From a virus, in the IMG/VR virus record IMGVR_UViG_3300044716_001642, positions 1-64,000 of that record: a DNA stretch of 64,000 nt; one strand, given 5' to 3'. Each line of letters opens with the position of its first letter. The first letter of the stretch is position 1. Positions 3,199 to 21,183 of the stretch are shown piece after piece. Under the pieces are notes generated by a model that saw nothing but the letters and a program-made list of their open reading frames with translations, did no database searches and was not told the DNA's origin. The position numbers and the translations under genes are program-made.

Positions 3199-3402
3199 AT
3201 GAAAGACACCATCACCCTCAGCCTCGAAATTCCACAGCAAATCGTCATCGTTCGCGCCTTGATCAATCGGGTCGAAAAACTTTTCACTATTCGCCACGAC
3301 ATGAACGGAAAACTTGACAAGTGGACAGCAAACGAAATTCGCTCTGCAATTAAGCTGGTTCGCTTGGCAAGAAAAGCCCATGAGATGAAATTCTCCCTGT
3401 AA
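3199..3402 (+). CDS. small hypothetical early protein
   Basis: A 67-residue, Lys/Arg-rich, largely helical protein with no recognised domain. The start is fixed by its promoter: the -10 box ends six bases before the ATG, so the transcript probably begins at or next to the start codon. It is the first of a string of short genes each with its own promoter. Function unknown. Confidence 0.7.
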   Translation: MKDTITLSLEIPQQIVIVRALINRVEKLFTIRHDMNGKLDKWTANEIRSAIKLVRLARKAHEMKFSL

Positions 3403-3410
3403 AATAATCC

Positions 3411-3438
3411 TTGCAATCAAATTCAATTCCACTATACT
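3411..3438 (+). promoter_or_regulatory. leaderless-type sigma70 promoter
   Basis: TTGCAA 3411-3416, 16-bp spacer, TATACT 3433-3438, six bases (AAAACC) to the ATG at 3445. AAAATAATCC precedes the -35 box, as in several other promoters here. Confidence 0.8.
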
Positions 3439-3444
3439 AAAACC

Positions 3445-3804
3445 ATGATACCAATAAACACCATCCCCCTCCACGCTGTCACTCACCCGCAGCACTTCGT
3501 CAAATTCAGCGCAACGCGCATCTCAAACAGCCGTGGCACTCACGACTCTGGACAATTCCAGATTCACTCCTCGACTCGCTTGTTCCATGTGTTCGCCGTG
3601 AAACAGCCCGATGGCACTTTCATCGGCAACTACCACGGTACGGAAGAGACTCGCCTTGAACTGGTTAAGGAGAAGGCTAAAAAGCTCTCTTTCATCTGTG
3701 GTATGTATGGCATTGGCGGTCAATCACTTACCTGTGATGATGGAGTCAAGCTGGAAGATGGCTCTTTCCTCTACAACGGCAGCTACGACTGCTGGAGCGA
3801 CTAG
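3445..3804 (+). CDS. hypothetical early protein
   Basis: A 119-residue soluble protein with no family I recognise. It has a central beta-like stretch (FHVFAVKQPDGTFIGNY), a helix rich in Lys/Glu and a C-terminal part with Cys (TCDDG, YDCWSD). The gene starts directly behind a consensus-like promoter and is followed by two sigma54-like motifs and the first 69-nt palindromic element, which mark the end of its transcription unit. Confidence 0.7.
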   Translation: MIPINTIPLHAVTHPQHFVKFSATRISNSRGTHDSGQFQIHSSTRLFHVFAVKQPDGTFIGNYHGTEETRLELVKEKAKKLSFICGMYGIGGQSLTCDDGVKLEDGSFLYNGSYDCWSD

Positions 3805-3807
3805 GCC

Positions 3808-3857
3808 TGGCATAGGTCTTGCTATGCGTGTCAGGGAAACTTGGCACGCTTTTTGCT
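3808..3857 (+). promoter_or_regulatory. two sigma54-like -24/-12 motifs
   Basis: TGGCAT-N5-TTGCTA at 3808-3824 and TGGCAC-N5-TTGCT at 3842-3857. Both keep GG and GC at the -24/-12 spacing. Whether they are active promoters is unknown; no gene starts directly downstream. Confidence 0.5.
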
Positions 3858-3875
3858 ATCCAGAAGCCAATCGGC

Positions 3876-3944
3876 GTAACTCCTTCAGTATCAACCACTT
3901 AGGGGCCCCTCGGGCCCGTAAGGCATTGCTGTTCAACACTTTAC
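3876..3944 (+). repeat. 69-nt palindromic intergenic element, copy 1
   Basis: Two 25-nt imperfect inverted repeats flank the GC core GGGGCCCCTCGGGCCC. Same layout as the other copies, at the 3' end of a transcription unit. Confidence 0.9.
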
Positions 3945-3947
3945 ACT

Positions 3948-4030
3948 TGGCGCGCTTCTTGAATACCTACTCACCGGGCCTGGCACGCTTCTTGATTGGC
4001 GCGTTACCTGGCCTGGCATGACGCCTGCTT
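3948..4030 (+). promoter_or_regulatory. three sigma54-like motifs
   Basis: TGGCGC-N5-TTGA at 3948, TGGCAC-N5-TTGA at 3981 and TGGCAT-N5-CTGCTT at 4014. The last, GC-type site lies just upstream of the A-rich tract of the next sigma70 promoter. Confidence 0.5.
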
Positions 4031-4070
4031 ACATCCCAAAAAAATAATTCAAAAAAAATAGAAATAATTC

Positions 4071-4098
4071 TTGCCTTCTTTGTGATCTGTGGTATCTT
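4071..4098 (+). promoter_or_regulatory. leaderless-type sigma70 promoter
   Basis: TTGCCT 4071-4076, 16-bp spacer, TATCTT 4093-4098, six bases to the ATG at 4105. AT-rich UP-like tract upstream. Confidence 0.8.
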
Positions 4099-4104
4099 AA
4101 AAAC

Positions 4105-4437
4105 ATGACAACGAACAACACCACCGCAGTAAACCCGAACGAAATCCCAGCCTCCACGACCCTCGTGAAGTTTACCTATGCCAAACCGCTTAAAGGCGGC
4201 GGCGTGAGTGTAACCCAGCGCGTCATCCGCATGGGGCGCGAGGTCATCCTGCCACTTCTCGCAGGCGGCTCGACTTGGGGCAAGAGCAACAACGGAAACC
4301 GCTTTGTGGCTCTCTATAAGAAGGACACAGAACAACGCCGCGAATACCTGCAAGGGGTTGAGGAGCAGGAGGATGGACGCCTCAAGATCAAGCGTTTCGA
4401 CTTCGGCTACATCAGCGATCTCCAAGTGCTGGCGTAA
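4105..4437 (+). CDS. early protein, AGGxxWGK paralogue family (copy A)
   Basis: A 110-residue protein with a Thr/Asn-rich N-terminus followed by a domain holding LAGGSTWGKSNNGN and YLQGVEE...KIKRFDF. The protein at 9327-9662 shares LAGG(S/T)xWGK, YLQGV and KRF in the same order and spacing, so the two are paralogues within the window. No external family is recognised. The GK in WGKS is not a full Walker A motif. Its promoter places the -10 box six bases from the ATG. Confidence 0.75.
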   Translation: MTTNNTTAVNPNEIPASTTLVKFTYAKPLKGGGVSVTQRVIRMGREVILPLLAGGSTWGKSNNGNRFVALYKKDTEQRREYLQGVEEQEDGRLKIKRFDFGYISDLQVLA

Positions 4438-4458
4438 GCCAGCCGAAATGAGCGACTT

Positions 4459-4515
4459 ATGCTAATCTTTACAGCAGGAATAATCATCGGAATAATCTTA
4501 ATTAAAAACTCTTAA
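4459..4515 (+). CDS. single-helix membrane microprotein
   Basis: The frame encodes only 18 residues (MLIFTAGIIIGIILIKNS), almost all hydrophobic with a central GxxxG-like GIIIG and a polar Lys-Asn end. Similar 18-26-residue frames with the same design occur at 6468, 9209, 16562, 24753 and 26411. It lies between two early genes in one direction. Translation is not proven, but the recurrence argues for a real class of membrane peptides. Confidence 0.45.
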   Translation: MLIFTAGIIIGIILIKNS

Positions 4516-4523
4516 TAAATACT

Positions 4524-4727
4524 ATGAAATCTATACTTAAAGCCAAAGTTCCACCCACAGTTAAACTCGGAAGCTGCACATTAGCAGGAATTTGTAGCCT
4601 TTACGAAACCCATAAGCAAAATATTCTCTGGGCATATAATAAAATGCTGGAAAGCGAAGGATATCAACCAGTTAGGCGTATGCCAGTTGGCACAAAATAC
4701 CAGTTTGTGGCTGGGTTTGGCTTCTGA
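4524..4727 (+). CDS. small hypothetical protein
   Basis: 67 residues, with VKLGSCTLAGICSLYETHK and YQPVRRMPVGTKYQF. No domain recognised. The N-terminal half could form a helix and the C-terminal half a short beta hairpin. It follows the microprotein frame by eight bases and is probably on the same transcript; the next 69-nt element follows its stop by about ten bases. Confidence 0.6.
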   Translation: MKSILKAKVPPTVKLGSCTLAGICSLYETHKQNILWAYNKMLESEGYQPVRRMPVGTKYQFVAGFGF

Positions 4728-4737
4728 TAAATAACCC

Positions 4738-4806
4738 GTAAGTCGCTGAGTATCAACGACTTAGGGGCCCCTCGGGCCCGTAAATCATTGTCAATCAACG
4801 GGTTAC
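4738..4806 (+). repeat. 69-nt palindromic intergenic element, copy 2
   Basis: Contains the perfect hairpin TAAGTCG...CGACTTA, the GGGGCCCCTCGGGCCC core and a second 25-nt arm ending GTTAC. Confidence 0.9.
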
Positions 4807-4810
4807 AACT

Positions 4811-4860
4811 TGGCACGGAAATTGAATACTAGAAACGAGGGCCTGGCATGGCGTTTGCTT
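4811..4860 (+). promoter_or_regulatory. two sigma54-like motifs
   Basis: TGGCAC-N5-TTGA at 4811 and TGGCAT-N5-TTGCTT at 4844, directly after the 69-nt element. Confidence 0.5.
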
Positions 4861-4901
4861 GCGGAGAAAAATAAAAATGAAAAAAAAATCGAAAAAATAT
4901 C

Positions 4902-4930
4902 TGGACAAAATTAGAGTTTTAGACTACATT
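4902..4930 (+). promoter_or_regulatory. leaderless-type sigma70 promoter
   Basis: TGGACA 4902-4907, 17-bp spacer, TACATT 4925-4930, six bases to the ATG at 4937. This promoter decides the start of the downstream gene. Confidence 0.75.
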
Positions 4931-4936
4931 AAAACC

Positions 4937-5092
4937 ATGAAGCAAGAAATGGTATCCAGATACGAGTGGGCAAAAGCAAGATTTGAAAATGGCTTGATCT
5001 CTCAAGATGAATGGTTCAAACTCTGCTTTGAAATCCTTGGTGAAATCATGGAGGAGAATAAAGATGTCCTCATCCGCCTCAAGAATCGCTGA
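4937..5092 (+). CDS. small hypothetical early protein
   Basis: 51 residues, charged and helical (VSRYEWAKARFENGLISQDEWFKLCFEILGEIMEEN). The frame is open further upstream to 4859, but the promoter -10 box at 4925-4930 fixes the ATG at 4937. The phrase 'ARFENGLISQDEW' resembles short-helical linker regions of phage regulatory proteins, but I recognise no family. Confidence 0.65.
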   Translation: MKQEMVSRYEWAKARFENGLISQDEWFKLCFEILGEIMEENKDVLIRLKNR

Positions 5093-5100
5093 AATAATCC

Positions 5101-5128
5101 TTGCAATAAAAATCTCAACCAATACAAT
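5101..5128 (+). promoter_or_regulatory. leaderless-type sigma70 promoter
   Basis: TTGCAA 5101-5106, 16-bp spacer, TACAAT 5123-5128, seven bases to the ATG at 5136. Confidence 0.75.
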
Positions 5129-5135
5129 TAAAACC

Positions 5136-5255
5136 ATGAAAGCAATAAACGCCATCGAAAAACTCATCCCCTACTTGTTCGCCTCTGTCTTCGCCCTTGC
5201 CATGTTCAATCTTTTCTTTGCATTCGCTGAATATGTCGAACGCCACGGGCTTTAA
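5136..5255 (+). CDS. small membrane protein
   Basis: A 39-residue protein with one hydrophobic segment (about residues 10-30, LIPYLFASVFALAMFNLFFA) between short polar ends, so a single-pass membrane protein is likely. The frame extends upstream, but the promoter places the start at 5136. It has its own promoter and precedes the 5301 gene by 45 bases. Function unknown. Confidence 0.6.
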   Translation: MKAINAIEKLIPYLFASVFALAMFNLFFAFAEYVERHGL

Positions 5256-5300
5256 TCTCTCAATCACCAACCAACAAAAAACAAAAAACAAAAAAACACC

Positions 5301-5483
5301 ATGACAAAAAAACACTTCACAGAAATTGCAAAGAGCATCAATCTTCAATACGCGCAAGCTGCTACAACCCAAGAGCTTAAATTGATTGAAAACATTGTGG
5401 ATGATCTCTGCTCTACCTTCAAAAATCTCAACAACTTGTTCGACAAGAATCGTTTCAAACAAGCCTGTGGAATAGAAAAATAA
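5301..5483 (+). CDS. small hypothetical early protein
   Basis: 60 residues, predicted all-helical, with leucine-rich heptads (LKLIENIVDDLCSTFKNLNNLF) that could form a short coiled coil. The leader is A/C-rich (CACCAACCAACAAAAAAC type) and has no Shine-Dalgarno sequence. A 69-nt element follows within six bases of the stop. No family recognised. Confidence 0.65.
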   Translation: MTKKHFTEIAKSINLQYAQAATTQELKLIENIVDDLCSTFKNLNNLFDKNRFKQACGIEK

Positions 5484-5488
5484 AGCGC

Positions 5489-5557
5489 GCAAACCCCTGA
5501 GTATCAACGACTTAGGGGCCCGTCGGGCCCGCAAGTCCTTACACCTCAACGCTTTAC
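5489..5557 (+). repeat. 69-nt palindromic intergenic element, copy 3
   Basis: Same two-arm layout; core GGGGCCCGTCGGGCCC with one base change in the loop. Confidence 0.9.
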
Positions 5558-5561
5558 AACT

Positions 5562-5611
5562 TGGCACACTTTTTGAATACCAGAAACGAGGGCCTGGCAT
5601 GTTCCATGCTT
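5562..5611 (+). promoter_or_regulatory. two sigma54-like motifs
   Basis: TGGCAC-N5-TTGA at 5562 and TGGCAT-N5-ATGCTT at 5595. Confidence 0.45.
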
Positions 5612-5640
5612 GTGCCTGAAAAATAAATTAAAAAAATATC

Positions 5641-5669
5641 TGGACAAAAACGAGAGAATCGACTACCCT
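5641..5669 (+). promoter_or_regulatory. leaderless-type sigma70 promoter
   Basis: TGGACA 5641-5646, 17-bp spacer, TACCCT 5664-5669, six bases to the ATG at 5676. Confidence 0.7.
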
Positions 5670-5675
5670 AAAACC

Positions 5676-5882
5676 ATGAAAAAATACCTCAACCAAGACG
5701 AACTGATCGACCGCCTCTCTGACTATGCAGGGGAAAACCTCTACAACAAATATGACCGCTTCATGGAGCAAGCTGGCGGCAATGTCTGGCTCGCTGAAAG
5801 CCTCGCGCAAGAGGACGCAATCCTAAAGCGTATCGCCCGCGAACAGGCAAGAGAGCTGAAGGAAACTGAACGCTTCGACTAA
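5676..5882 (+). CDS. small helical early protein
   Basis: 68 residues, acidic/basic patterned helices (LIDRLSDYAGENLYNKYDRF, LAQEDAILKRIAREQAREL). No recognised domain. The frame is open upstream to 5610, but the promoter fixes the start at 5676. It is followed after a few bases by the promoter of the next gene. Confidence 0.65.
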   Translation: MKKYLNQDELIDRLSDYAGENLYNKYDRFMEQAGGNVWLAESLAQEDAILKRIAREQARELKETERFD

Positions 5883-5889
5883 AAATAAT

Positions 5890-5918
5890 CCTTGACGCGC
5901 TCGCCACTAACCACTAAA
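5890..5918 (+). promoter_or_regulatory. sigma70-like promoter
   Basis: TTGACG about 5890-5895, 17-bp spacer, TAAACT. Unlike its neighbours it is followed by a leader of about 25 nt before the ATG at 5946. Confidence 0.6.
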
Positions 5919-5945
5919 CTAAAAACTCAATCAAATAACCTCACC

Positions 5946-6446
5946 ATGAAATTCACTAAAAAAACAGACCCTCTAAACTTCATCCAAGCAAAAGCTGTCC
6001 TTCAAAAGATCGAAGATCAAAAGCCCTACTTCTCTCTGACTGGGCGCATTGTTGAAAATGGGCGCGAATCTGTGAGCGGCGCAATTCACGATGAAATTCT
6101 TGCCGCCTTTCCAGAACTCGATGACCTTGTTGCCATGCACCTTTCCGACATTGACGGCAGACCCATGAACTCTTTTGAAAATGGCAAATACTGGGCAGGA
6201 TTTACAAAATGGGAAAACGGCAACGCTGAAATTCTCGCAAATCATTTTAGGATTGGAAAACAAAGATCGCAAGACCTTATGTATGAGACTCTTGTTGATA
6301 AATGCAATGACATTAAAGCTGATACTGGCGAGGATGTTCTTCCAGAAACTCTCTTCAAAGAGTTCCACGATAGGCAGTTAAGAAGATGGAAACAAGAGGC
6401 TGATAATGTCATTAAAAAATACTCTCTCGAAATCGTTGCAGATTAA
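5946..6446 (+). CDS. hypothetical early protein
   Basis: 166 residues, no recognised family. It has an N-terminal helix (DPLNFIQAKAVLQKIEDQK), a middle region with LDDLVAMHLSDIDGRPMNSFENGKYWAGFTKWENGNAEIL and a C-terminal helical part. The ATG at 5946 is preceded by an A/C-rich leader. It lies upstream of a microprotein and a lipoprotein gene in the same unit. Confidence 0.7.
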   Translation: MKFTKKTDPLNFIQAKAVLQKIEDQKPYFSLTGRIVENGRESVSGAIHDEILAAFPELDDLVAMHLSDIDGRPMNSFENGKYWAGFTKWENGNAEILANHFRIGKQRSQDLMYETLVDKCNDIKADTGEDVLPETLFKEFHDRQLRRWKQEADNVIKKYSLEIVAD

Positions 6447-6467
6447 CAGATTAAGGAGAATATAAAA

Positions 6468-6527
6468 ATGGAAATCACTCTACTTCTCGGCTTGGCTCTT
6501 GGCGTCTTTCTTGTGGCAAATAATTAA
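6468..6527 (+). CDS. single-helix membrane microprotein
   Basis: 19 residues (MEITLLLGLALGVFLVANN). It is preceded by AAGGAG at the right distance, one of the few clear Shine-Dalgarno sequences in this region, which supports translation. Its sequence closely parallels the frame at 9209 (ME-x-T-x-x-LG-x-x-LG-x-F), and both sit in the same position relative to early genes. Confidence 0.6.
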   Translation: MEITLLLGLALGVFLVANN

Positions 6528-6544
6528 ATTAAAAACAAAATAAA

Positions 6545-6754
6545 ATGAAAAACAAAATCATCCTCATCTCATTCTCTCTCAACCTCTTACTGGCAATGAC
6601 TTCCTGCTCATTCTATACTCTTGCCACAATTAAACAAAACGAGAATGATCAAGTAAAAAAAGCCGCTACGCAAGTCTTTGACTTTCCAGAGATTAAGAGC
6701 GAAGAAACGCCAAAAACCCTGCCAAAGAAAAAACAGAAAGCGCGCCAATCTTAA
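6545..6754 (+). CDS. small lipoprotein
   Basis: 69 residues with a lipoprotein signal: basic start (MKNK), hydrophobic core (IILISFSLNLLLAM) and the lipobox-like MTSC with Cys near residue 21. The mature part is hydrophilic and Lys-rich at its end (KKKQKARQS). It would be anchored in the host envelope; phage lipoproteins of this size often act in superinfection exclusion or lysis, but nothing here shows which. Confidence 0.65.
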   Translation: MKNKIILISFSLNLLLAMTSCSFYTLATIKQNENDQVKKAATQVFDFPEIKSEETPKTLPKKKQKARQS

Positions 6755-6763
6755 ACGGCACGC

Positions 6764-6832
6764 GTAAGTCCCTGAGTCTCAACGACTTAGGGGCCCCTCG
6801 GGCCCGCAAGTGATTGGTAATCAACAAGTTAC
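6764..6832 (+). repeat. 69-nt palindromic intergenic element, copy 4
   Basis: Both arms well kept: TAAGTCC...GACTTA and TAAC/GTTAC type second arm; perfect GGGGCCCCTCGGGCCC core. Confidence 0.9.
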
Positions 6833-6836
6833 AAGT

Positions 6837-6886
6837 TGGCACGCTTCTTGAATACTCCGATTCGAGGCCTGGCACGGCGTCTGCTT
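6837..6886 (+). promoter_or_regulatory. two sigma54-like motifs
   Basis: TGGCAC-N5-TTGA at 6837 and TGGCAC-N5-CTGCTT at 6870. Confidence 0.5.
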
Positions 6887-6914
6887 ACATGGCAAAAATA
6901 AATTAAAAAATATC

Positions 6915-6943
6915 TTGCACTTTTTTGGGACTTGGAGTATCTT
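6915..6943 (+). promoter_or_regulatory. leaderless-type sigma70 promoter
   Basis: TTGCAC 6915-6920, 17-bp spacer, TATCTT 6938-6943, six bases (TTAACC) to the ATG at 6950. Confidence 0.8.
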
Positions 6944-6949
6944 TTAACC

Positions 6950-7246
6950 ATGAACACGACCACCACCACCACCGACAACGAAATCATCAGCCTCGCCAGC
7001 GTGACTTGCGAGGAACTTGACGATACTTACTTTCAATTCGCCGACGGACTACGCGAAGAACAGGAAAGCGAGCAATACGATTCTTACCAAATCGACGACG
7101 ACAACGACGACGATCATCACGGCTTCAACCGCGAACCCCGCGAGGACAACTTCCGTGATGATGTGGACGCGGACGCAAACGCCTTGGCTGGAGCCGGTTA
7201 CGGCACGGACGAGGATTACGGATACTTCGGGGGCGACGAGTGGTGA
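6950..7246 (+). CDS. strongly acidic small early protein
   Basis: 98 residues, dominated by Asp and Glu (for example DDDNDDDHHGF and DDVDADANALAG) with Gly/Tyr/Trp at the end (YGYFGGDEW). The start is fixed by the promoter. Highly acidic early phage proteins often mimic DNA to block restriction or repair enzymes (Ocr, Arn, DMP19 are established examples), but there is no sequence similarity to those and much of this protein may be disordered. Confidence 0.65.
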   Translation: MNTTTTTTDNEIISLASVTCEELDDTYFQFADGLREEQESEQYDSYQIDDDNDDDHHGFNREPREDNFRDDVDADANALAGAGYGTDEDYGYFGGDEW

Positions 7247-7248
7247 GC

Positions 7249-7317
7249 GTAAACCCCTGAGTCTCAACGACTTAGGGGCCCCTCGGGCCCGCAAGTGGTT
7301 GGCGTTCAACGCTTTAC
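7249..7317 (+). repeat. 69-nt palindromic intergenic element, copy 5
   Basis: Starts three bases after the upstream stop codon; perfect GGGGCCCCTCGGGCCC core. Confidence 0.9.
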
Positions 7318-7320
7318 GAT

Positions 7321-7370
7321 TGGCACGATTCTTGAATACCTCAAATTGCAACTTGGCACGCCACCTGCTT
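7321..7370 (+). promoter_or_regulatory. two sigma54-like motifs
   Basis: TGGCAC-N5-TTGA at 7321 and TGGCAC-N5-CTGCTT at 7354. Confidence 0.5.
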
Positions 7371-7410
7371 ACAGGGAAAAATAAAAATAAATAAAAATTA
7401 AAAATAATTC

Positions 7411-7438
7411 TGGACATTAAGAAACCTTGTGATACCTT
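7411..7438 (+). promoter_or_regulatory. leaderless-type sigma70 promoter
   Basis: TGGACA 7411-7416, 16-bp spacer, TACCTT 7433-7438, six bases to the ATG at 7445. Confidence 0.75.
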
Positions 7439-7444
7439 AAATCC

Positions 7445-7684
7445 ATGACAACAACACCAACCACCACGAAAGCAATGAAGAAAAAGACAACAAACCGCTG
7501 GAGGCTGTCTATAACTTACCCGTCTGGGCATGGCATAGCCGAAACATTCGCAGTTGGCGCAACTAAACAGCAAACTCTGTATAGATGGTTTCTGCAATTT
7601 TATTGTGGCAGTGTTCCATCTGGCGCTCGCATCCCTAAAAATGCAATCTCTATCACTTGGATGAAAATTTTTCCTTCAAAATAA
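7445..7684 (+). CDS. small hypothetical early protein
   Basis: 79 residues, basic, with a Thr/Lys-rich N-terminus (MTTTPTTTKAMKKKTTN) and WRLSITYPSGHGIAETFAVGATKQQTLYRWF behind it. The latter reads like a small beta-hairpin plus helix module. No family recognised. Leaderless promoter directly upstream; the -35 box of the next promoter begins right behind the stop. Confidence 0.65.
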   Translation: MTTTPTTTKAMKKKTTNRWRLSITYPSGHGIAETFAVGATKQQTLYRWFLQFYCGSVPSGARIPKNAISITWMKIFPSK

Positions 7685-7687
7685 TCC

Positions 7688-7716
7688 TTGACACCATCAA
7701 CTTTAACCATTAAATT
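7688..7716 (+). promoter_or_regulatory. sigma70-like promoter
   Basis: TTGACA, 17-bp spacer, TAAATT; a leader of about 14 bases (AAAACTCAAAAC) then leads to the ATG at 7730. Confidence 0.65.
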
Positions 7717-7729
7717 AAAAACTCAAAAC

Positions 7730-8230
7730 ATGAATACAACAAACACCCAAACCCAAAACTCCAACCTCATCATCTCGCTCTACGGCTCTGAAATTGCCGT
7801 TGGCATCGAAGGAACACGCGAGGAAATCAACCAGCAATTCAACCGCTTTTTCAACATGGGAGGGGCAGCACCAAACTGCACTGCCGCTTTCTGCTCTGAA
7901 GACTCTGACGCTGGCGACAATTACATTCACTTCTTGAGCGACCGCTTCGCTTACTTCCTCTCTGACGAAGAGGCAATGATTAAAGCCCTTGAGACTGAAC
8001 AACTTATGATTGCAAACTCCAAACCCAATCCCGAACATAAAGGCAAGAAAGACGGCATTCTTAATGAGGTAAAAACTTTAGCCAAAGATCTTTACAAAAG
8101 TATCAAGCGCGAGAACTTCATGCTTTACAAAACCTCGGAACAGGTTGCGTTCAAGAAACTTGACGGCGGCGCACCTTCGCTGGATATGTCATCGCTCAAC
8201 TTCTTCTCGACTCACGCCCATGTGAGTTGA
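7730..8230 (+). CDS. hypothetical early protein
   Basis: 166 residues. An Asn/Thr/Gln-rich start is followed by LIISLYGSEIAVGIEGTREEINQQFNRFF, a Cys/Asp-rich middle (CTAAFCSEDSDAGDNYIHFLSDRF) and a Lys-rich helical part. No recognised family. The frame is open upstream to 7688 but overlaps the promoter, so 7730 is the start. A 69-nt element follows the stop. Confidence 0.7.
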   Translation: MNTTNTQTQNSNLIISLYGSEIAVGIEGTREEINQQFNRFFNMGGAAPNCTAAFCSEDSDAGDNYIHFLSDRFAYFLSDEEAMIKALETEQLMIANSKPNPEHKGKKDGILNEVKTLAKDLYKSIKRENFMLYKTSEQVAFKKLDGGAPSLDMSSLNFFSTHAHVS

Positions 8231-8240
8231 GGAAATCCCC

Positions 8241-8309
8241 TTAAGTTGCTGAATATCAACGACTTAGGGGCCCCTCGGGCCCGCAAGGCCTTGCTACTCA
8301 ACGCTTTAC
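8241..8309 (+). repeat. 69-nt palindromic intergenic element, copy 6
   Basis: TTAAGTTG...CAACGACTTA first arm, perfect core, second arm ending in CTTTACA. Confidence 0.9.
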
Positions 8310-8313
8310 AACT

Positions 8314-8397
8314 TGGCACGAGAATTGAATAGCCCGATCTAAAACTTGGCACGCTTTTTGAATATCTCAATCAGAGGCCTGGCACGCTTCTTGAATA
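8314..8397 (+). promoter_or_regulatory. three sigma54-like motifs
   Basis: TGGCAC-N5-TTGA at 8314, 8347 and 8380, evenly spaced by 33 bases. The 33-base spacing of neighbouring motifs recurs at the other copies. Confidence 0.5.
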
Positions 8398-8452
8398 GCT
8401 GTGAGAGGGTTAAAAATAAAAATGAAAAAAAATAAAAAAAATCCCTTGCCTA

Positions 8453-8482
8453 TTCTGTCAAATAAGACTATTCTCTTTCTTG
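8453..8482 (+). promoter_or_regulatory. sigma70-like promoter
   Basis: TTGCCT, 17-bp spacer, TATTCT, preceded by an A-run; a leader of about 25 A/C-rich bases precedes the ATG at 8504. Confidence 0.6.
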
Positions 8483-8503
8483 TAATCAACACCACCAAAC
8501 ACC

Positions 8504-9175
8504 ATGACATTACTTGCCACCAATACCAAACTCGAAAAAGGAACCAAACTCGACTGGACGACAAAAGGTCTGTCCCTCGCTCCTGCTAACCTCTCTGGAA
8601 AACAGCTCTGCCCTCACCGCTCCGCTGGCTGTGAACTCGCCTGCCTCAACACCGCTGGCATGGGCGTATTCTCCAATGTTCAAGAGGCTCGAATCAATAA
8701 AACCCGCTTTCTGATCGAGAAACGCGCCGACTTTCTAGCGGCTCTCAACAAGGAACTCGTCAACCTCAACAAACGAGCAGGCAAGGGTCAGAAAATTGCT
8801 GTGCGCCTCAATGTTCTTTCCGATCTGCCTTGGCATAACATGATCGACATGAAGAGCTTCGAGAATCTTCATTTTTATGATTATACTCCTAACATGGGTC
8901 GCATGATCCAATTCTTAAATGGAGAACTCCCTGCAAACTATCACCTTACATTCAGCCGCAAAGAAAATAATCAGGCTAAGGTTGAATTGATCGTTGCAAT
9001 GGGCGGCAATGTCGCGGTCGTGTTCGACAAACTCCCCGAAAGCTATCTCGGCAAGCAAGTTGTGGACGGTGACGCAACCGACTTGCGATTCCTTGATGCT
9101 AAAGGGGTTATCGTCGGGCTGAAAGCCAAGGGCAAGGGCAAAAAAGACACATCGGGCTTCGTAGTAAAAACATAA
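8504..9175 (+). CDS. GP88-family phage protein
   Basis: 223 residues matching the phage 'gene product 88' family: APANLSGKQLCPHRSAGCELACLNTAG with Cys36, Cys43 and Cys47, followed by SNVQEARINKTRFL and FYDYTPNMGRMI. The three conserved Cys look like a metal or Fe-S site; the biochemical role of the family is not established to my knowledge. The leader is A/C-rich without a Shine-Dalgarno sequence. The start is the first ATG after the promoter and gives the family's usual N-terminus. Confidence 0.8.
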   Translation: MTLLATNTKLEKGTKLDWTTKGLSLAPANLSGKQLCPHRSAGCELACLNTAGMGVFSNVQEARINKTRFLIEKRADFLAALNKELVNLNKRAGKGQKIAVRLNVLSDLPWHNMIDMKSFENLHFYDYTPNMGRMIQFLNGELPANYHLTFSRKENNQAKVELIVAMGGNVAVVFDKLPESYLGKQVVDGDATDLRFLDAKGVIVGLKAKGKGKKDTSGFVVKT

Positions 9176-9208
9176 CATGAAAGGACATACAACAAAAACA
9201 AACTATAA

Positions 9209-9274
9209 ATGGAACTCACTATCATTCTTGGCTTTATACTTGGCATTTTTATGCTCTACTCTTCTAAAAATTAA
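9209..9274 (+). CDS. single-helix membrane microprotein
   Basis: 21 residues beginning MELTIILGFILGIFML and ending in Ser-Lys-Asn. It is a near-twin of the frame at 6468 at both protein and DNA level. It lies between the GP88 gene and the promoter of the next gene. Confidence 0.55.
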   Translation: MELTIILGFILGIFMLYSSKN

Positions 9275-9290
9275 ATCAAAAAAAATTAAC

Positions 9291-9319
9291 TTGACAAAAC
9301 AAACCAAAAAACCTATAAA
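9291..9319 (+). promoter_or_regulatory. leaderless-type sigma70 promoter
   Basis: TTGACA 9291-9296, 17-bp spacer, TATAAA 9314-9319, seven bases to the ATG at 9327. Near-consensus. Confidence 0.8.
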
Positions 9320-9326
9320 TAATAAT

Positions 9327-9662
9327 ATGATTAACCTCACTAAAACCAACAAAACCAACAACATGAACACAAACAACCGCAAAGCTCAACAACTCGCTTC
9401 ACTCATCACTGAAATCGTAATTAACAAGGGAACCTGCTTTGCAGGATTCACTTACAACGGCAAACGCCGCAACCTCACCCTCGGCGCAAAAATGGCTGGT
9501 CGCCTCGCTGGCGGCACTTCATGGGGCAAGACATACGCCAATGGCGCGATTGTAGAGCATAATAATAATCTTTATCTCCAAGGCGTTCCTAATAATGAGG
9601 ATACGACTGCCGTGGTGAAGCGGTTCAAACTCGCCGAAGTTGATAACTTTGTAATTGGTTAG
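9327..9662 (+). CDS. early protein, AGGxxWGK paralogue family (copy B)
   Basis: 111 residues from the ATG set by the promoter (a second ATG at 9363 gives 99 residues). LAGGTSWGKTYANGA, YLQGVPN and VVKRFKL align with the 4105-4437 protein, marking an in-window duplication with strong divergence. No external family recognised. It is followed by a classical intrinsic terminator and then element copy 7. Confidence 0.75.
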   Translation: MINLTKTNKTNNMNTNNRKAQQLASLITEIVINKGTCFAGFTYNGKRRNLTLGAKMAGRLAGGTSWGKTYANGAIVEHNNNLYLQGVPNNEDTTAVVKRFKLAEVDNFVIG

Positions 9663-9682
9663 TGGTCAGGGTATAAGGGTAG

Positions 9683-9715
9683 AAACGCGCCTTGTGGTGG
9701 GGCGCGTTTCTTTTT
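9683..9715 (+). terminator. intrinsic terminator
   Basis: Perfect 9-bp stem AAACGCGCC/GGCGCGTTT (9683-9691 with 9701-9709), nine-base loop, then CTTTTT. Confidence 0.85.
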
Positions 9716-9733
9716 GCCCAGAAGCCTTTCCTC

Positions 9734-9802
9734 GTAAGTTGCTCAGCATCAACGACTTACGGGCCCCTCGGGCCCCTAAAGCATTGACGATCAACGAGTT
9801 AC
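9734..9802 (+). repeat. 69-nt palindromic intergenic element, copy 7
   Basis: Core variant CGGGCCCCTCGGGCCC. It follows a separate intrinsic terminator, so the element is not simply the terminator itself. Confidence 0.9.
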
Positions 9803-9806
9803 AACT

Positions 9807-9824
9807 TGGCATGGATCATGCTTG
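9807..9824 (+). promoter_or_regulatory. sigma54-like motif
   Basis: TGGCAT-N5-ATGCTT; last of the series on the plus strand. Confidence 0.4.
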
Positions 9825-9853
9825 CATGGCAGAATAAAAATTAAAAAAATATC

Positions 9854-9882
9854 TTGACCAATAATCAAGGAGCTTGTAAGAT
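9854..9882 (+). promoter_or_regulatory. sigma70-like promoter
   Basis: TTGACC 9854-9859, 17-bp spacer, TAAGAT 9877-9882, ten bases to the ATG at 9893. Confidence 0.65.
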
Positions 9883-9892
9883 CAATACTGTA

Positions 9893-10060
9893 ATGAATAA
9901 AGTTTATATTGTTTTCAAAGAAGAAGATTATGCAGCAGATAGATTGTTGTCTATTCATGCCACAGAAGAAGGAGCCAAAAAAGAATGCCAAATACGCTTT
10001 GAGCGTCTCGGTGGCGCAATAGATCCTTACTATTGGGAAGAAACAGAAGTTCAACCATAA
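9893..10060 (+). CDS. DUF7336-like small phage protein
   Basis: 55 residues: MNKVYIVFKEEDYAADRLLSIHATEEGAKKE matches the pattern of small phage proteins (DUF7336 type) that begin with K-V-Y-I-V, then a loop and a helix with 'S-T-E-E-A'. Function not known. The frame extends upstream into the promoter; 9893 is the promoter-consistent start. Confidence 0.6.
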   Translation: MNKVYIVFKEEDYAADRLLSIHATEEGAKKECQIRFERLGGAIDPYYWEETEVQP

Positions 10061-10068
10061 AAATATCC

Positions 10069-10097
10069 TTGACCATTGTATAAAATTATAGCATACT
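10069..10097 (+). promoter_or_regulatory. sigma70-like promoter with conserved spacer
   Basis: TTGACC 10069-10074, spacer starting ATTGTATAAAATT, CATACT 10092-10097, ten bases to the ATG at 10108. The spacer sequence recurs at 12589, 19366 and 27732. Confidence 0.65.
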
Positions 10098-10107
10098 CTT
10101 TTCTGTT

Positions 10108-10323
10108 ATGAACACCATCACTCGAACACCACAAATCAACATCGGCGACGACATCACCTTGAACGACGAGAAGGAGGGACGCGTTCTCTCCAAGACCATC
10201 GCGGGAATCTTGACCAACATTTTTGATGGCGAGGGCTACATTCGCAAAGTAAAGCCAACCGAAATCATTGCGCTTCGTCGTGGTAGCAATTTCTTCAAAG
10301 TCTCAATCAAGTCAAACATTTAA
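10108..10323 (+). CDS. small hypothetical early protein
   Basis: 71 residues with alternating hydrophobic pattern (INIGDDITLNDEKEGRVLSKTIAGILTNIFDGEGYIRKV) suggesting a small beta barrel, like many phage 'KOW/SH3-like' proteins, but no clear family. Followed after 45 bases, with an ACCAAC-repeat leader, by the next gene. Confidence 0.65.
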   Translation: MNTITRTPQINIGDDITLNDEKEGRVLSKTIAGILTNIFDGEGYIRKVKPTEIIALRRGSNFFKVSIKSNI

Positions 10324-10368
10324 TCTCATTTTAATTCAACCAACAAACCAACAAACCAACCAAACAAA

Positions 10369-10596
10369 ATGAAAATCACACGCAAATCACCATTGACAGG
10401 AATCACCCGCACCAAAGAAATTGATGTCACGATTGAGCAAATCTTAGCATGGGAAGAGGGCGAACTCATCCAGAACGCAATGCCGCAACTCTCGGCGGAC
10501 GACAGGGAGTTCGTAAAGACAGGGATCACAGGGGAAGAGTGGGATCAACTCTTTGGCGGCTCTGAGGAAGCAGAACAGGAGGAGGAACTTGTATGA
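10369..10596 (+). CDS. small acidic hypothetical protein
   Basis: 75 residues, ending in an acidic tail (GGSEEAEQEEELV). ITRKSPLTGITRTKEIDVTIEQILAWEEGELIQNAMPQLSADDREFVKTGIT is a pattern I have seen in phage hypothetical proteins (DUF-type, 'L.WE.G.LIQ.A.P.L...ERE.I.TG.T'); no function known. The leader is an ACCAAC repeat without a Shine-Dalgarno sequence. Its stop overlaps the next start (ATGA). Confidence 0.7.
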   Translation: MKITRKSPLTGITRTKEIDVTIEQILAWEEGELIQNAMPQLSADDREFVKTGITGEEWDQLFGGSEEAEQEEELV

Positions 10597-10892
10597 GAAA
10601 TACAACCTCACAAGATAAGTGGCTAATGGTCTTAAACTTAGCTGGACAACTGCATGATGTTCTCTTTGATGGAAAAGATGTTTATGACTACAATTTTCCA
10701 ACAGAAAAAATTCATAAGATTAAAACTCTCTGCGGATTAGTCATTGACCATGATACACTTGCAAAAATTTGTTCAGAGAAAATGATTGGTAAGAAAGTTG
10801 TATCTTCTGCATTTGATGGTAGATGGATGACAGAGGATGTGAATACGCCTTTCACTCTCTCGGTAGCTTCTGAAACCTACTGGTCTTCATAA
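10593..10892 (+). CDS. hypothetical protein
   Basis: 99 residues, start overlapping the previous stop by four bases (translational coupling). It has WLMVLNLAGQLHDVLFDGKDVYDYNF and a C-terminal part ending TYWSS. No family recognised. A 69-nt element starts four bases behind the stop. Confidence 0.65.
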   Translation: MRNTTSQDKWLMVLNLAGQLHDVLFDGKDVYDYNFPTEKIHKIKTLCGLVIDHDTLAKICSEKMIGKKVVSSAFDGRWMTEDVNTPFTLSVASETYWSS

Positions 10893-16110: not shown

Positions 16111-16126
16111 GCGGATTTTATACTAC

Positions 16127-16195
16127 ATAACTTGTTGCCGCCCAGGTACTTGCGGGCCGGAGGGGCCCCTAAGTCGCTGATACTCAACAACTTAA
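16127..16195 (-). repeat. 69-nt palindromic intergenic element, copy 12
   Basis: Minus-strand orientation, between the 16227 gene and the promoter of the 16060 gene. Core AGGGGCCCCTCCGGCCCG. Confidence 0.9.
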
Positions 16196-16226
16196 GGGTT
16201 GGCTTACTTGTTTTTATTAATTTGCT

Positions 16227-16493
16227 TTAGTAATCTATTTCAATGTAGATGAGCTGTCCTTCTTTGGCAAGGTTTTTATATTTCTCTTTGATCTCTGGCG
16301 TGTCCTTGTATGTGTCTTGGACTTTCCATACCTCATCGAAGTTTTCTTCTGTGAGTGTTTTTACTTCGTAAGATTCGCAGGAATTTTCATAATCAGAGAA
16401 GTGATCCTCCAGTTGGCTCAATAGTTTCTGAATGTATTCAGATTTGGTTTTGCCTTCTGGAATCCGTTTGATTTGTGTTTCGAGCATCCCCAT
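16227..16493 (-). CDS. hypothetical protein
   Basis: 88 residues, highly charged and helical (LETQIKRIPEGKTKSEYIQKLLSQLEDHF...VWKVQDTYKDTPEIKEKYKNL). No family recognised. Upstream is a TTGACA-17-TAGATT promoter (16556-16528) with a long ACC-rich leader and no Shine-Dalgarno sequence. Confidence 0.65.
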   Translation of the reverse strand: MGMLETQIKRIPEGKTKSEYIQKLLSQLEDHFSDYENSCESYEVKTLTEENFDEVWKVQDTYKDTPEIKEKYKNLAKEGQLIYIEIDY

Positions 16494-16527
16494 TTTAGGT
16501 TTAGTTTGGTTGTATTGTCGGTTGAGT

Positions 16528-16557
16528 ATTTAATCTAATTTAAATTTATTGTTTTGT
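16528..16557 (-). promoter_or_regulatory. sigma70 promoter
   Basis: Minus strand: TTGACA, 17-bp AT-rich spacer, TAGATT; leader of about 35 bases to the ATG at 16493. Confidence 0.65.
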
Positions 16558-16561
16558 CAAG

Positions 16562-16636
16562 CTACCATTTTATGAAGGTTGATAGAATGATTCCAAGAAT
16601 TACGATTAGTGCGAATGACGGGTTTGTTGTTTCCAT
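16562..16636 (-). CDS. single-helix membrane microprotein
   Basis: 24 residues: METTNP followed by a hydrophobic helix (FALIVILGIILSTF) and Ile-Lys-Trp. Same design as the 18-26-residue frames elsewhere. Lies directly behind the DNA glycosylase gene. Confidence 0.5.
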   Translation of the reverse strand: METTNPSFALIVILGIILSTFIKW

Positions 16637-16662
16637 TTTGGTTTGTTGTTTTGGTTTTGTTG

Positions 16663-17373
16663 TTAGTATTGAATCTCATCTGTAAAGTCTCCCTCCTCAA
16701 GAACATAAGACCAGTAGCGCGAGTTTGTATAGCCTTGTTTTCTATCCCAATAAATGCAACGCGCAACATAGCAGGAAACATTATACTCGAAACACATTCT
16801 GACCCAATGATGCTCGATCTCTTGATATTTGTTTCTGTGCTTTGTTTGATCCAGTCCGTAAAGTTGGAATAGGTGAGTATCAAGGCAAGTGATCTCTGCT
16901 TCTGATGGGTAGAGCATCTCGATGCTGAAGCTGGATTTTGCCATACCCAAACCAAGAATAGTATCCTCGATACGATTGCGATATTCAGTCCAAGACTCGC
17001 CTTCTGCTTTCTTGTAGAAGGATGGGTTGCTCCAATACTTGATTGAGAACTGCTTGATAAACTTTACGCGATTGTTATACAGCCCTGCGCCACTCTCCCT
17101 CAAGCGATCCTCAAGAGCCTGCCAGTTGTTCATCCACTCCCACCAGTTTTTGATGAGAGAATACGCTTTGATATTGGACTCCCAAGAGGTATGGACGCTT
17201 GTAAAGGCGAAAAGGAAACGCTGAAAAATTTCCGTATCGTTGATTGGCTTGAGAGCAGACCAGTAAGCGGTCTGGAAGTCGATCTCATTTTTTGTCAATG
17301 AAGCAAAGAAAGCCTCTGCTTCGGTTGCGTCTATTCGGGCGATTGTGGTTGTTGGTAGTGTAGTGGTTGACAT
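16663..17373 (-). CDS. HhH-type DNA glycosylase-like protein
   Basis: 236 residues. The centre carries a helix-hairpin-helix signature TILGLGMAKSSFSIEML (residues 138-154), where Lys146 sits at the position of the Schiff-base Lys of Ogg-type enzymes, followed by CLDTHLFQLYG with Asp165 at the position of the catalytic Asp. This fits a bifunctional base-excision glycosylase/lyase; the damaged base is not predictable. A TTG six bases upstream is possible, but the ATG at 17373 is eight bases from the -10 box. Confidence 0.7.
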   Translation of the reverse strand: MSTTTLPTTTIARIDATEAEAFFASLTKNEIDFQTAYWSALKPINDTEIFQRFLFAFTSVHTSWESNIKAYSLIKNWWEWMNNWQALEDRLRESGAGLYNNRVKFIKQFSIKYWSNPSFYKKAEGESWTEYRNRIEDTILGLGMAKSSFSIEMLYPSEAEITCLDTHLFQLYGLDQTKHRNKYQEIEHHWVRMCFEYNVSCYVARCIYWDRKQGYTNSRYWSYVLEEGDFTDEIQY

Positions 17374-17381
17374 ACTCAATC

Positions 17382-17410
17382 AAGGTATGCGTTTTTGATG
17401 GATGCGTCAA
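17382..17410 (-). promoter_or_regulatory. near-leaderless sigma70 promoter
   Basis: Minus strand: TTGACG (17410-17405), 17-bp spacer, TACCTT (17387-17382), eight bases to the ATG at 17373. Confidence 0.75.
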
Positions 17411-17436
17411 TGAATTTTTTATAGAATATTCCTCGT

Positions 17437-17505
17437 GCAAGTTGTTCAACCAGAAGTACTTGCGGGCCGGAGGGGCCCGTAACTCACTGAGTTACAAGGC
17501 TTTGC
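17437..17505 (-). repeat. 69-nt palindromic intergenic element, copy 13
   Basis: Minus orientation; ends one base before the 17507 gene stop, at the end of that transcription unit. Confidence 0.9.
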
Positions 17506-17506
17506 G

Positions 17507-17698
17507 TCATGAATTATACTGCAACCAATCTAAGATTTCTTGATAGTAATTATCATAAAGGAGAGCCCTTGCCTCTTCCAGCTCGCAGGTATTAACCAAA
17601 TCCAATACAAAATCAAAATTCTCTACATTAGGCATTTGACTTGATGTCAAATAAACTATAGCCTTCTTAACGCTTGAATTGATTAGATGTTGTTGCAT
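17507..17698 (-). CDS. small hypothetical protein
   Basis: 63 residues, acidic helical (FDFVLDLVNTCELEEARALLYDNYYQEILDWLQYN). No family recognised. A 16-base poly-A tract on its coding strand (17701-17718 region) separates it from the upstream gene. Confidence 0.55.
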   Translation of the reverse strand: MQQHLINSSVKKAIVYLTSSQMPNVENFDFVLDLVNTCELEEARALLYDNYYQEILDWLQYNS

Positions 17699-17772
17699 AT
17701 TTTTTTTTTTTTTAATTTAAATCTGGCGTTTTATTTTGACAGGATGACGCCCAACCCCCAATCCTCAAATTC

Positions 17773-18354
17773 TCAAGATAGCTTGAATACTCGGGCTGGC
17801 TTGCCCTTGCCTTGTGGCTTTGTGCCAACAATCTGTATTGTGTCTGGATTCTCGCGCTGAATCTTTGCAATCTCATTATTGATAACGAACTTCTTTACTC
17901 CAAGTTTAGCAGCGATATGCCCTACTGTAAACTCTTCATGGCGAGGCAATTGAATTGCGTGCTTCTTTGGGCGACCCGCGCCCACTTTTGTATGTTTAAC
18001 ATTCTCAATGCTCATTTTCTTTACTTTCTTTGTTTTAGGTTTTACTTCTTTTTCTTCTTCTTTTTTTTCATTTAAAATTGTATTTAAAATTTCTTTTGGA
18101 ATTGTTATCATGCCCTCCTTATTGATTGGTAGCTTTTGCCTCCCCACATCATAAGAGACCATTGTGGCTGGAGCGAAGAAGTCAACGAATGGTGAATAGC
18201 CCCCTGCATCTGTTTGTTTGTATCCCTGCACCTTGCAGGTTGACTCGCCGCCTCTGATGAGATACATTAGCTTGAATGTATCTTTAAGAGATTCTACGAT
18301 GAACGGAGCACCATCTTGCAGATTTTGCAATTGAGTTGTTCTACGCTGTTGCAT
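17773..18354 (-). CDS. putative DNA-binding protein with HTH and AT-hook-like motif
   Basis: 193 residues from the inner ATG. The N-terminal half has APFIVESLKDTFKLMYLIRGGEST; a Lys/Glu-rich linker follows (KEEEKEVKPKTKKVKK); then GAGRPKKH (AT-hook-like), and a helix-turn-helix-like segment FTVGHIAAKLGVKKFVINNEIAKIQRE, ending basic. Probably a transcription or replication accessory factor. It overlaps the end of the RuvB-like helicase gene, suggesting co-transcription. Confidence 0.6.
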   Translation of the reverse strand: MQQRRTTQLQNLQDGAPFIVESLKDTFKLMYLIRGGESTCKVQGYKQTDAGGYSPFVDFFAPATMVSYDVGRQKLPINKEGMITIPKEILNTILNEKKEEEKEVKPKTKKVKKMSIENVKHTKVGAGRPKKHAIQLPRHEEFTVGHIAAKLGVKKFVINNEIAKIQRENPDTIQIVGTKPQGKGKPARVFKLS

Positions 18355-19351
18355 CAGTAAACCCTCCCTCATTCTTGAAAACATACTTGCGGAGATACTC
18401 TTTGCCGTTTGCTGTGATCTCCCTGCCGCCAGCTTTAATCTGCATCAGACCTTTCTTGACAAGATAGGACTCAAACTCAAGCATGATGGCTTGCCGTGTG
18501 AACCCTGTCTTTGCTGACAAGTTGTTGAGGGAGCAACCAGTAGGGAACTCGCTCAATGCCTTGAGAACTTGAACCTCGGAACTCTCAAGACCCATAGGCA
18601 TGATACCAAGAACCTCGCAGAGAGTTTCCCAATGTTTCTGGCAAAGTTTTGAAACCTTGCCGCCCTTCATATACTGGACGATGTTATCCTTTGCCATCAA
18701 TACAGCGTTACGCGCATTGCCACGGCATACCGAAGCAACATGAGGCATTACATCTTCTGGAATCTCCAAGCCCTCATCAAGATTCTCGCGGACAATCCTT
18801 CCAAGGTCTGAATACTCGTATTCGTCCATGTGAAGAATACGGCAACGATCTTTGAAAGGCCCCACCAATTTTTGCGGATCAGTAGTGGCGAATACAAAGC
18901 TCACCTTCTTGAAGTCAAAAAGAATTTCTGAATCTTCATATCGAAACAAGTTACTATTCTTCTTGTTTGGATTAAGGATTGTAAGCAGTGAAGTTTGAAC
19001 GCTTTCTGGAAGAGCATGACACTCATCAAAAAAAACTGTCAAAGTTTGGTCATTAACATACTTGAGAACAATGTCTTCCACGAATTGTCTCACATTCTTA
19101 ACTGTGCTGGAATTGACTGTCAGCAAAGGCTTTGGGCGACCTCCCATAGCGTCGAGTCGAAGATTCCTTGCGAGGGAAACAGCGAACTCTGTTTTGCCAG
19201 AACCTCTACCGCCTACCAAAAGAATGGTTGGCAGAATTTGAGTCTCGCGGAAAGAGTTGAGATAAAAGCGAAGTTGCGCTTTCAATTTGTTCTGTCCGAT
19301 CAAGTGGGCGAAATGATCTTTCTCTTCTTGGGTTGTGTTTGTATCGTTCAT
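18341..19351 (-). CDS. RuvB-like AAA+ ATPase (Holliday junction helicase type)
   Basis: 336 residues. Walker A GGRGSGKT (47-54), Walker B VFFDECHA (106-113), sensor 1 FVFATTDP, arginine-finger region FKDRCRI, and a C-terminal winged helix (GLESSEVQVLKALSEFPTG...FESYLVKKGLMQ) typical of RuvB. RuvB drives branch migration on Holliday junctions; no RuvA is seen here, so it may use a host partner or act alone. Promoter TTGACT-17-TACTAT sits eight bases from the ATG. Confidence 0.85.
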   Translation of the reverse strand: MNDTNTTQEEKDHFAHLIGQNKLKAQLRFYLNSFRETQILPTILLVGGRGSGKTEFAVSLARNLRLDAMGGRPKPLLTVNSSTVKNVRQFVEDIVLKYVNDQTLTVFFDECHALPESVQTSLLTILNPNKKNSNLFRYEDSEILFDFKKVSFVFATTDPQKLVGPFKDRCRILHMDEYEYSDLGRIVRENLDEGLEIPEDVMPHVASVCRGNARNAVLMAKDNIVQYMKGGKVSKLCQKHWETLCEVLGIMPMGLESSEVQVLKALSEFPTGCSLNNLSAKTGFTRQAIMLEFESYLVKKGLMQIKAGGREITANGKEYLRKYVFKNEGGFTDATA

Positions 19352-19359
19352 GGTTTAAT

Positions 19360-19388
19360 ATAGTAGTTGGTTTTTATACAATAGTCAA
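19360..19388 (-). promoter_or_regulatory. near-leaderless sigma70 promoter with conserved spacer
   Basis: Minus strand: TTGACT (19388-19383), spacer beginning ATTGTATAAAA, TACTAT (19365-19360), eight bases to the ATG at 19351. Confidence 0.7.
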
Positions 19389-19415
19389 ATAATTTTATTC
19401 TAAATCCGAATAATT

Positions 19416-19724: not shown

Positions 19725-19736
19725 ATTTTTATTTAA

Positions 19737-20066: not shown

Positions 20067-20072
20067 ACCCAT

Positions 20073-20101
20073 AATATAAATGAATTTTAATGTGAATGCA
20101 A
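20073..20101 (-). promoter_or_regulatory. leaderless-type sigma70 promoter
   Basis: Minus strand: TTGCAT (20101-20096), 17-bp spacer, TATATT (20078-20073), six bases to the ATG at 20066. Confidence 0.75.
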
Positions 20102-20119
20102 GTATAAAGTATAGGATTG

Positions 20120-20188
20120 TTAAGTTATTGATACTGAGGCGCTTGCGGGCCGGAGGGGCCCGTAACCTGTTGATATTGAATGACTTAT
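20120..20188 (-). repeat. 69-nt palindromic intergenic element, copy 14
   Basis: Minus orientation, between the rIIB terminator and the promoter of the 20066 gene. Confidence 0.9.
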
Positions 20189-21174: not shown

Positions 21175-21183
21175 AACAAAACC

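Follow-up and report, generated by a model that had tools for sequence, protein, structure and literature searches.

Why should a phage carry tandem copies of a motif resembling the −24/−12 promoter element of sigma54 (RpoN), and what could such copies do? The question is raised by the virus record IMGVR_UViG_3300044716_001642 (IMG/VR), a phage record of 134,417 bp of which the first 64 kb, the window referred to below (64,000 nt), were analysed. Seventeen of these sites lie in arrays among early genes on the plus strand. Judged by their sequence, the sites are genuine recognition elements with sigma54 specificity, and they are very probably bound by the sigma54 of the host, as binding is the only reading which explains one specificity shared by unrelated phages. 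As to function, the favoured reading, at a probability of roughly 0.47, is that the arrays capture host sigma54-RNA polymerase (Esigma54), either by titration or by docking.

Seventeen sites in the early block

The pattern TGGCRY-N6-TGM matched the window 23 times against 2.8 expected, with a maximum of nine in 100 shuffles, and 17 of the 23 matches lie on the plus strand at 3808–9821. These are the seventeen sigma54-like sites reported in the initial annotation in groups of one to three, mostly 33 bases apart; they withstood both the shuffles and the matrix search described below, with a spacing of 33 bp in all groups but 34 for 3808/3842. Their restriction to the plus-strand block was also borne out, no second cluster of the pattern being present in the rest of the 134,417-bp record. 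It had further been stated that almost all sites follow a 69-nt element, which is correct for 15 of the 17, sites 3808 and 3842 standing ahead of the first such element. Each unit begins after a stop codon with the 69-nt element, which is followed by the group of one to three sites, an A-rich tract and a sigma70-type promoter approximately 6 nt before the ATG. The sites are as follows (ORF, open reading frame; scores are from the matrix described below).

3808–3822, plus strand: sigma54-like site TGGCATAGGTCTTGC(T), matrix score 18.6, directly behind the stop codon of ORF 3445–3804
3842–3856, plus strand: full-consensus sigma54-like site TGGCACGCTTTTTGC(T), matrix score 21.0, the best of the sites
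3948–4028, plus strand: three-site array, 3948 (TTGAA type), 3981 (TTGAT type) and 4014 (CTGCT type), 33 bp apart
4811–4858, plus strand: two-site array, 4811 (TTGAA) and 4844 (TTGCT), 33 bp apart
5562–5609, plus strand: two-site array, 5562 (TTGAA) and 5595 (ATGCT), 33 bp apart
6837–6884, plus strand: two-site array, 6837 (TTGAA) and 6870 (CTGCT), 33 bp apart
7321–7368, plus strand: two-site array, 7321 (TTGAA) and 7354 (CTGCT), 33 bp apart
8314–8394, plus strand: three-site array, 8314, 8347 and 8380, all of TTGAA type, 33 bp apart, ahead of the GP88 gene
9807–9821, plus strand: single site TGGCATGGATCATGC(T), matrix score 17.7

Site 3808 is conserved in locus L009 as TGGCACACTTCCTGC, and the array at 7321–7368 has a near-identical orthologue there. 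Site 3842 scores best, but its bases also supply the 3′ arm and the U-run of a hairpin that resembles a terminator (GCGTGTC..GGCACGC-TTTTT, 3826–3849). This hairpin has the GC-rich stem followed by a U-run of an intrinsic terminator, with the stem kept in L009, and because of this double identity site 3842 does not count as evidence in its own right. TGA replaces TGC at −12 in about half of the sites in the window. This is tolerated in E. coli, where the confirmed sigma54 promoter of hydN has TGAA (PMC4591121).

The same arrays are present at ten loci from relatives of the window phage. In these the inter-site distances vary (27, 33, 34, 42, 45, 46, 51 and 52), so that conservation applies to the single site rather than to a 33-bp repeat. 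Across eight pairs of orthologous arrays, 143 of 152 bases were kept in the core, compared with 49 of 76 in the four-base internal spacer and 509 of 675 in the DNA outside the sites (P ~1e-8); on this comparison the 17 sites are real conserved elements. The initial annotation had placed TTGAAT-type sites first and TGCT-type sites last. This order is found in five of the six window arrays of two or three sites behind a 69-nt element, and family-wide the −12 base is C in 29 and A in 12 last sites against C in 11 and A in 28 upstream sites (P = 0.0003); the array at 8314, with TTGAA throughout, departs from it. The sites of the relatives also follow the direction of the flanking genes, by 10 to 0 between plus-strand genes and by 33 to 1 between minus-strand genes, so that the window family has the gene-directed orientation of sigma54 promoters. 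A close cultured relative of the window phage was not found by ribonucleotide reductase, helicase, portal or early-region DNA.

Sigma54 specificity and its recurrence in unrelated phages

The sigma54 −24/−12 consensus is TGGCAC-N5-TTGCT, of the Barrios type (PMC12316311, PMC4591121). A matrix was built from 50 intergenic E. coli sigma54 sites determined by chromatin immunoprecipitation sequencing (ChIP-seq; PMC4591121). With this matrix the 17 sites were among the 19 best of 128,000 positions, and their scores (15.9–21.0) all exceeded the leave-one-out median of the E. coli ChIP-seq sites themselves (15.7). At a cut-off of >=9 the window held 36 matches, 17 of them these sites, whereas mirrored or column-shuffled matrices gave 8–18 in all. 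The −24/−12 spacing was likewise specific, with 203 matches against 17–27 at other spacings. A logo was made from 626 unique phage sites, chosen on TGGCAY and TGM only. At the unselected positions it reads YTGGCAYR-R..T-TTGCW, equal to the sigma54 consensus, with Y before TGG, R after the hexamer, T at −14, W behind TGC and a free N4. The GG at −24 and GC at −12 which define a sigma54 promoter are therefore present at the fixed spacing (TGGCAYG-N4-TTGCW).

Two sites 33 bp apart were found in 32 stretches of IMG/VR, most of them non-coding arrays, whereas 257 Gb of bacterial genomes yielded 19 stretches, almost all of which are coding sequence or chance matches. A scan for three sites returned at least 120 stretches, with non-coding arrays at no fewer than 99 of the loci analysed. 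A control with one base added to the spacer gave 65 stretches and seven non-coding loci, mostly simple repeats. Depending on the threshold of protein similarity, the array-bearing loci fall into at least 25–49 clusters. Among long phage contigs, 20 were inspected and had almost all of their matches in a single compact cluster each, and in 13 of 32 long array-bearing contigs the array was no more than 2 kb from a contig end (2.9 expected), although assembly breaks at repeats may contribute to this figure. BLAST with an idealised array returned weak single matches only.

Orientation and spacing are free in these other phages, as opposed to the single orientation in the window family. Based on simple ORF calls, 51 sites between plus-strand genes face forward and 50 face backward, and 76 sites lie between convergent genes, so that by these rough calls site direction does not follow the genes outside the window family. 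Many face-to-face pairs are 18–22 bp apart and tandem sites 25–29 bp apart. In one respect the arrays have the make-up of a decoy, namely in their several clustered sites of high predicted affinity in non-coding DNA. No sigma54 DNA-binding domain or activator domain was detected above the cut-off in 21 array-bearing phages; a weak ATPase match at 41534 fell below it.

The element also recurs in cultured phages whose hosts are known. In the Vibrio phages among them it occupies early or terminal non-coding stretches, at or close to the genome ends; VpV262, pVp-1 and Thalassa have no relationship to the window phage. VpV262 of Vibrio parahaemolyticus has six sites (four forward, two reverse) at 173–346, directly behind a 138-bp terminal repeat in its 0.9-kb non-coding end. 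In pVp-1, a T5-like Vibrio phage, two non-coding gaps of 0.92 kb next to the pre-early gene A2 hold four strong sites. In Thalassa and Direpillow8 (V. harveyi) all matches lie in the terminal-repeat region with A2, at both genome ends, A1 being annotated in this region in Thalassa. In Aeromonas phage AhSzq-1 three sites adjoin A2. When T5 infects, DNA entry into the cell begins with the A1/A2 region. Vibrio and Aeromonas, the hosts of VpV262, pVp-1, Thalassa and AhSzq-1, have rpoN. Enterobacterial T5-like phages had no sites in the A1/A2 region, and eight cultured phages, among them Roseobacter CRP-1, Pelagibacter HTVC103P and three other Zobellviridae, had no cluster. The literature search, largely of open-access papers, found no published mention of the element in VpV262, pVp-1 or Thalassa and no description of phage sigma54 arrays in general.

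Some further loci should be noted. In the 147,530-bp phage contig G012 (locus L134), 32 sigma54-like sites are spread over both strands and occupy two or more non-coding gaps. Loci L046, L050–L052, L055, L057, L060, L070 and L074 represent another phage family with TTGA-type pairs (TTGGCATGATTCTTGATT) 33 bp apart; it shares the −12 variant with the window family and perhaps the same host lineage. Among the few bacterial loci with tandem sites 33 bp apart, L085 and L090 from Nitratireductor genomes possibly represent a real tandem promoter. Repeats of the perfect palindrome TGGCACAGGTTGTGCCA at L168 (G008, 34310–34408) match the pattern, but these are a different element and were dropped.

Capture, promoters or another role

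It is proposed that sites for the sigma54 (RpoN) holoenzyme of the host have been multiplied in the non-coding DNA of several phage lineages, and that host Esigma54 would bind these arrays, a step which we infer strongly from the match in specificity. That their general role is capture, and not normal promoter firing, is moderately likely considering the orientation, the packing and the missing activator gene in the phages. Speculatively, once the phage DNA has replicated, its sites could outnumber the sigma54 molecules and mute the sigma54 regulon; a different consequence, also speculative, would be Esigma54 docked on early-region DNA. In the window phage, captured Esigma54 would sit directly upstream of the early sigma70 promoters and face the same way. 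Since they are co-directed with and upstream of these promoters, some window sites, above all the last TGCT-type site of each array, may also fire.

Capture is favoured because the sites elsewhere face both ways, ignore gene direction and are dense, in phages with neither a sigma54 nor an activator of their own. The orientation in other phages is not proof of it, as face-to-face pairs could be bidirectional promoters between divergent genes. Several observations weigh against capture: the arrays of the window family all point with the early genes and have ordered site types, neither of which pure titration needs; a single infecting genome brings 4–17 sites only; and in some of the T5-like phages of Vibrio each terminal repeat holds no more than two sites. 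E. coli contains about 100 sigma54 molecules, against which 4–17 sites are few, and titration would therefore work only after replication.

The main rival, which we consider rather unlikely overall, is that the arrays are auxiliary tandem sigma54 promoters, one to three per early gene in addition to the leaderless sigma70 promoter. They would be fired by an enhancer-binding protein of the host, perhaps a sensor of infection stress, with the TTGAAT sites weaker or accessory and the last TGCT site the main start. It is the main rival because the window arrays all lie on the strand of the early genes they point to, a direction kept in the relatives, and it draws further support from the dependence of site type on position in the array, the TGAA of the confirmed hydN promoter and the site that T5-like Vibrio phages have upstream of A2. 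For last sites of TGCT type, the predicted +1 falls inside, or 1–2 bases from, the A-rich tract, but this tract could equally be the UP element of the sigma70 promoter and was rejected as proof of a sigma54 start. Against promoters stand the lack of a phage-encoded activator above the cut-off and of any activator site confined to these genes (sigma70-only genes, too, have the 69-nt element in front of them), the disregard for gene direction in other phages, and the sites 25–29 bp apart, which overlap one another's start regions. Co-orientation with genes thus favours promoters in the window, while random orientation, packing and the missing activator favour capture or titration elsewhere. Of what the initial annotation had suggested, sigma54 recruitment stands as binding, strongly supported by sequence, though the window alone does not decide between promoter and decoy. 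The proposed scan of the remaining genome and of relatives yielded the ten relative loci with arrays and no cluster in the rest of the record.

Binding by another widely conserved protein, or a function as replication-origin iterons, would fit the usual single compact array per genome and its frequent position near an end (13 of 32 within 2 kb, 2.9 expected). It is nevertheless improbable: initiators peculiar to each phage would not have a single 16-bp specificity in common across dozens of unrelated phages, this specificity agrees with E. coli sigma54 wherever a position is informative, and the window family has eight dispersed arrays. Slightly less probable again is a roadblock or insulator, in which bound closed Esigma54 complexes would block read-through from upstream and shield the downstream sigma70 promoter; each array does separate the end of a unit from the sigma70 promoter of the unit that follows, and site 3842 overlaps the terminator-like hairpin, but many arrays elsewhere occupy long non-coding gaps between divergent genes, where there is no read-through. 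Chance or an unrelated look-alike repeat, the latter also raised initially, has almost nothing left in its favour besides the fixed 33-bp period typical of the window family. Relatives keep the site and not this period, and the unrelated repeat was rejected on the shuffles, the specific spacing, the 626-site logo, the matrix ranking, the conserved core and the convergence of unrelated phages on the element.

The phage sites share sequence, internal spacing and position-specific preferences with bacterial sigma54 promoters and score as high as ChIP-seq-confirmed E. coli sites or higher. They differ in being arrayed, in their gene-independent orientation in most phages, in the A for C at −12 of many window-family sites and in that no activator gene or dedicated upstream activator site was found for the arrays. 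The stoperators of mycobacteriophage L5, which lie in short gaps between genes and are bound by the phage repressor, are asymmetric and keep one orientation relative to transcription. The arrays resemble them, as far as this general description goes, in having many asymmetric sites of one orientation in short gaps; however, stoperators bind a phage repressor of its own specificity, whereas the arrays match a host sigma factor. E. coli and Salmonella also have sigma54 binding sites which are not promoters (PMC4591121, PMC3844500), and it was suggested for Salmonella that extra sites could sequester Esigma54 (PMC3844500). Those sites likewise have no evident promoter role, but they are single and mostly intragenic, unlike the dense non-coding arrays of the phages.

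A wider proposal, which can be put forward tentatively, is that many unrelated phages carry a DNA sponge or dock of host sigma54 sites, which would capture sigma54-RNA polymerase with no phage activator and would reprogram or silence the sigma54 regulon. Its place would often be the genome end which enters first (Vibrio T5-like terminal repeats, the VpV262 left end). Phage proteins that inhibit or retarget host RNA polymerase are known; if the proposal is true, the arrays would be a class of takeover element made of DNA. Should Esigma54 be captured, this would be a protein-free interference with nitrogen, flagellar, pilus and phage-shock regulation. The arrays may also hint that a metagenomic phage infects an RpoN-bearing host.

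The 69-nt element and neighbouring features

The other features of the region are listed below.

3199–10892, plus strand: block of small ORFs with the arrays in front of them; no sigma54 or activator gene within
3876–3944, plus strand: first of seven 69-nt elements which precede arrays, with two dyads TAAGTnnTTGA-N3/4-TCAAnnACTTA around GGGGCCCCTCGGGCCC
4739–4807, 5490–5558, 6765–6833, 7250–7318, 8242–8310 and 9735–9803, plus strand: the other array-preceding 69-nt elements
4902–4930, plus strand: example of a sigma70-type promoter downstream of arrays, TGGACA-N17-TACATT, 6 nt to ATG
8504–9175, plus strand: GP88 family gene within the early block, behind the array 8314–8394
10890, 12486 and 13670, plus strand, and 16126–23681, minus strand: 69-nt elements before genes without sigma54 sites

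The 69-nt element consists of two imperfect dyads approximately 42 bp apart around GGGGCCCCTCSGGCCC, an invariant GC block. Its half-site, approximately TCAACGACTTA, is conserved, and the element lies upstream of leaderless-looking sigma70 promoters on both strands. No RNA covariation was detected in the element, pairing being no better than in shuffles, and it had no Rfam match (tRNAs were the only Rfam matches). A structured-RNA role was rejected on these two grounds, and the dyads look like tandem sites for a dimeric DNA-binding protein. They lie at roughly −72 and −115 from the predicted sigma54 start; despite these fitting positions a sigma54-specific enhancer was rejected, because the element is found upstream of sigma70-only genes too.

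A sigma70-type promoter lies 3′ of each array, and an A-rich tract precedes the −35 region of the one at 4902–4930. Throughout 3199–10892 the early ORFs look leaderless, with a −10 hexamer about 6 nt ahead of the ATG and an A-rich UP-like tract upstream of the −35 region; from this spacing a leaderless start of the early genes is inferred. The window phage encodes RIIA/RIIB, a clamp loader, a DnaB-type helicase, DNA polymerase and ribonucleotide reductase as well as a phage sigma factor of the sigma70 kind. A sigma factor of this kind (phrog_351) is also present at L044 (5401–6021, minus strand). At L043 (3386–7294; 87386–91294 of the record) a DNA polymerase is divided between two ORFs; the junction is intein-like, and a further ORF lies in between.

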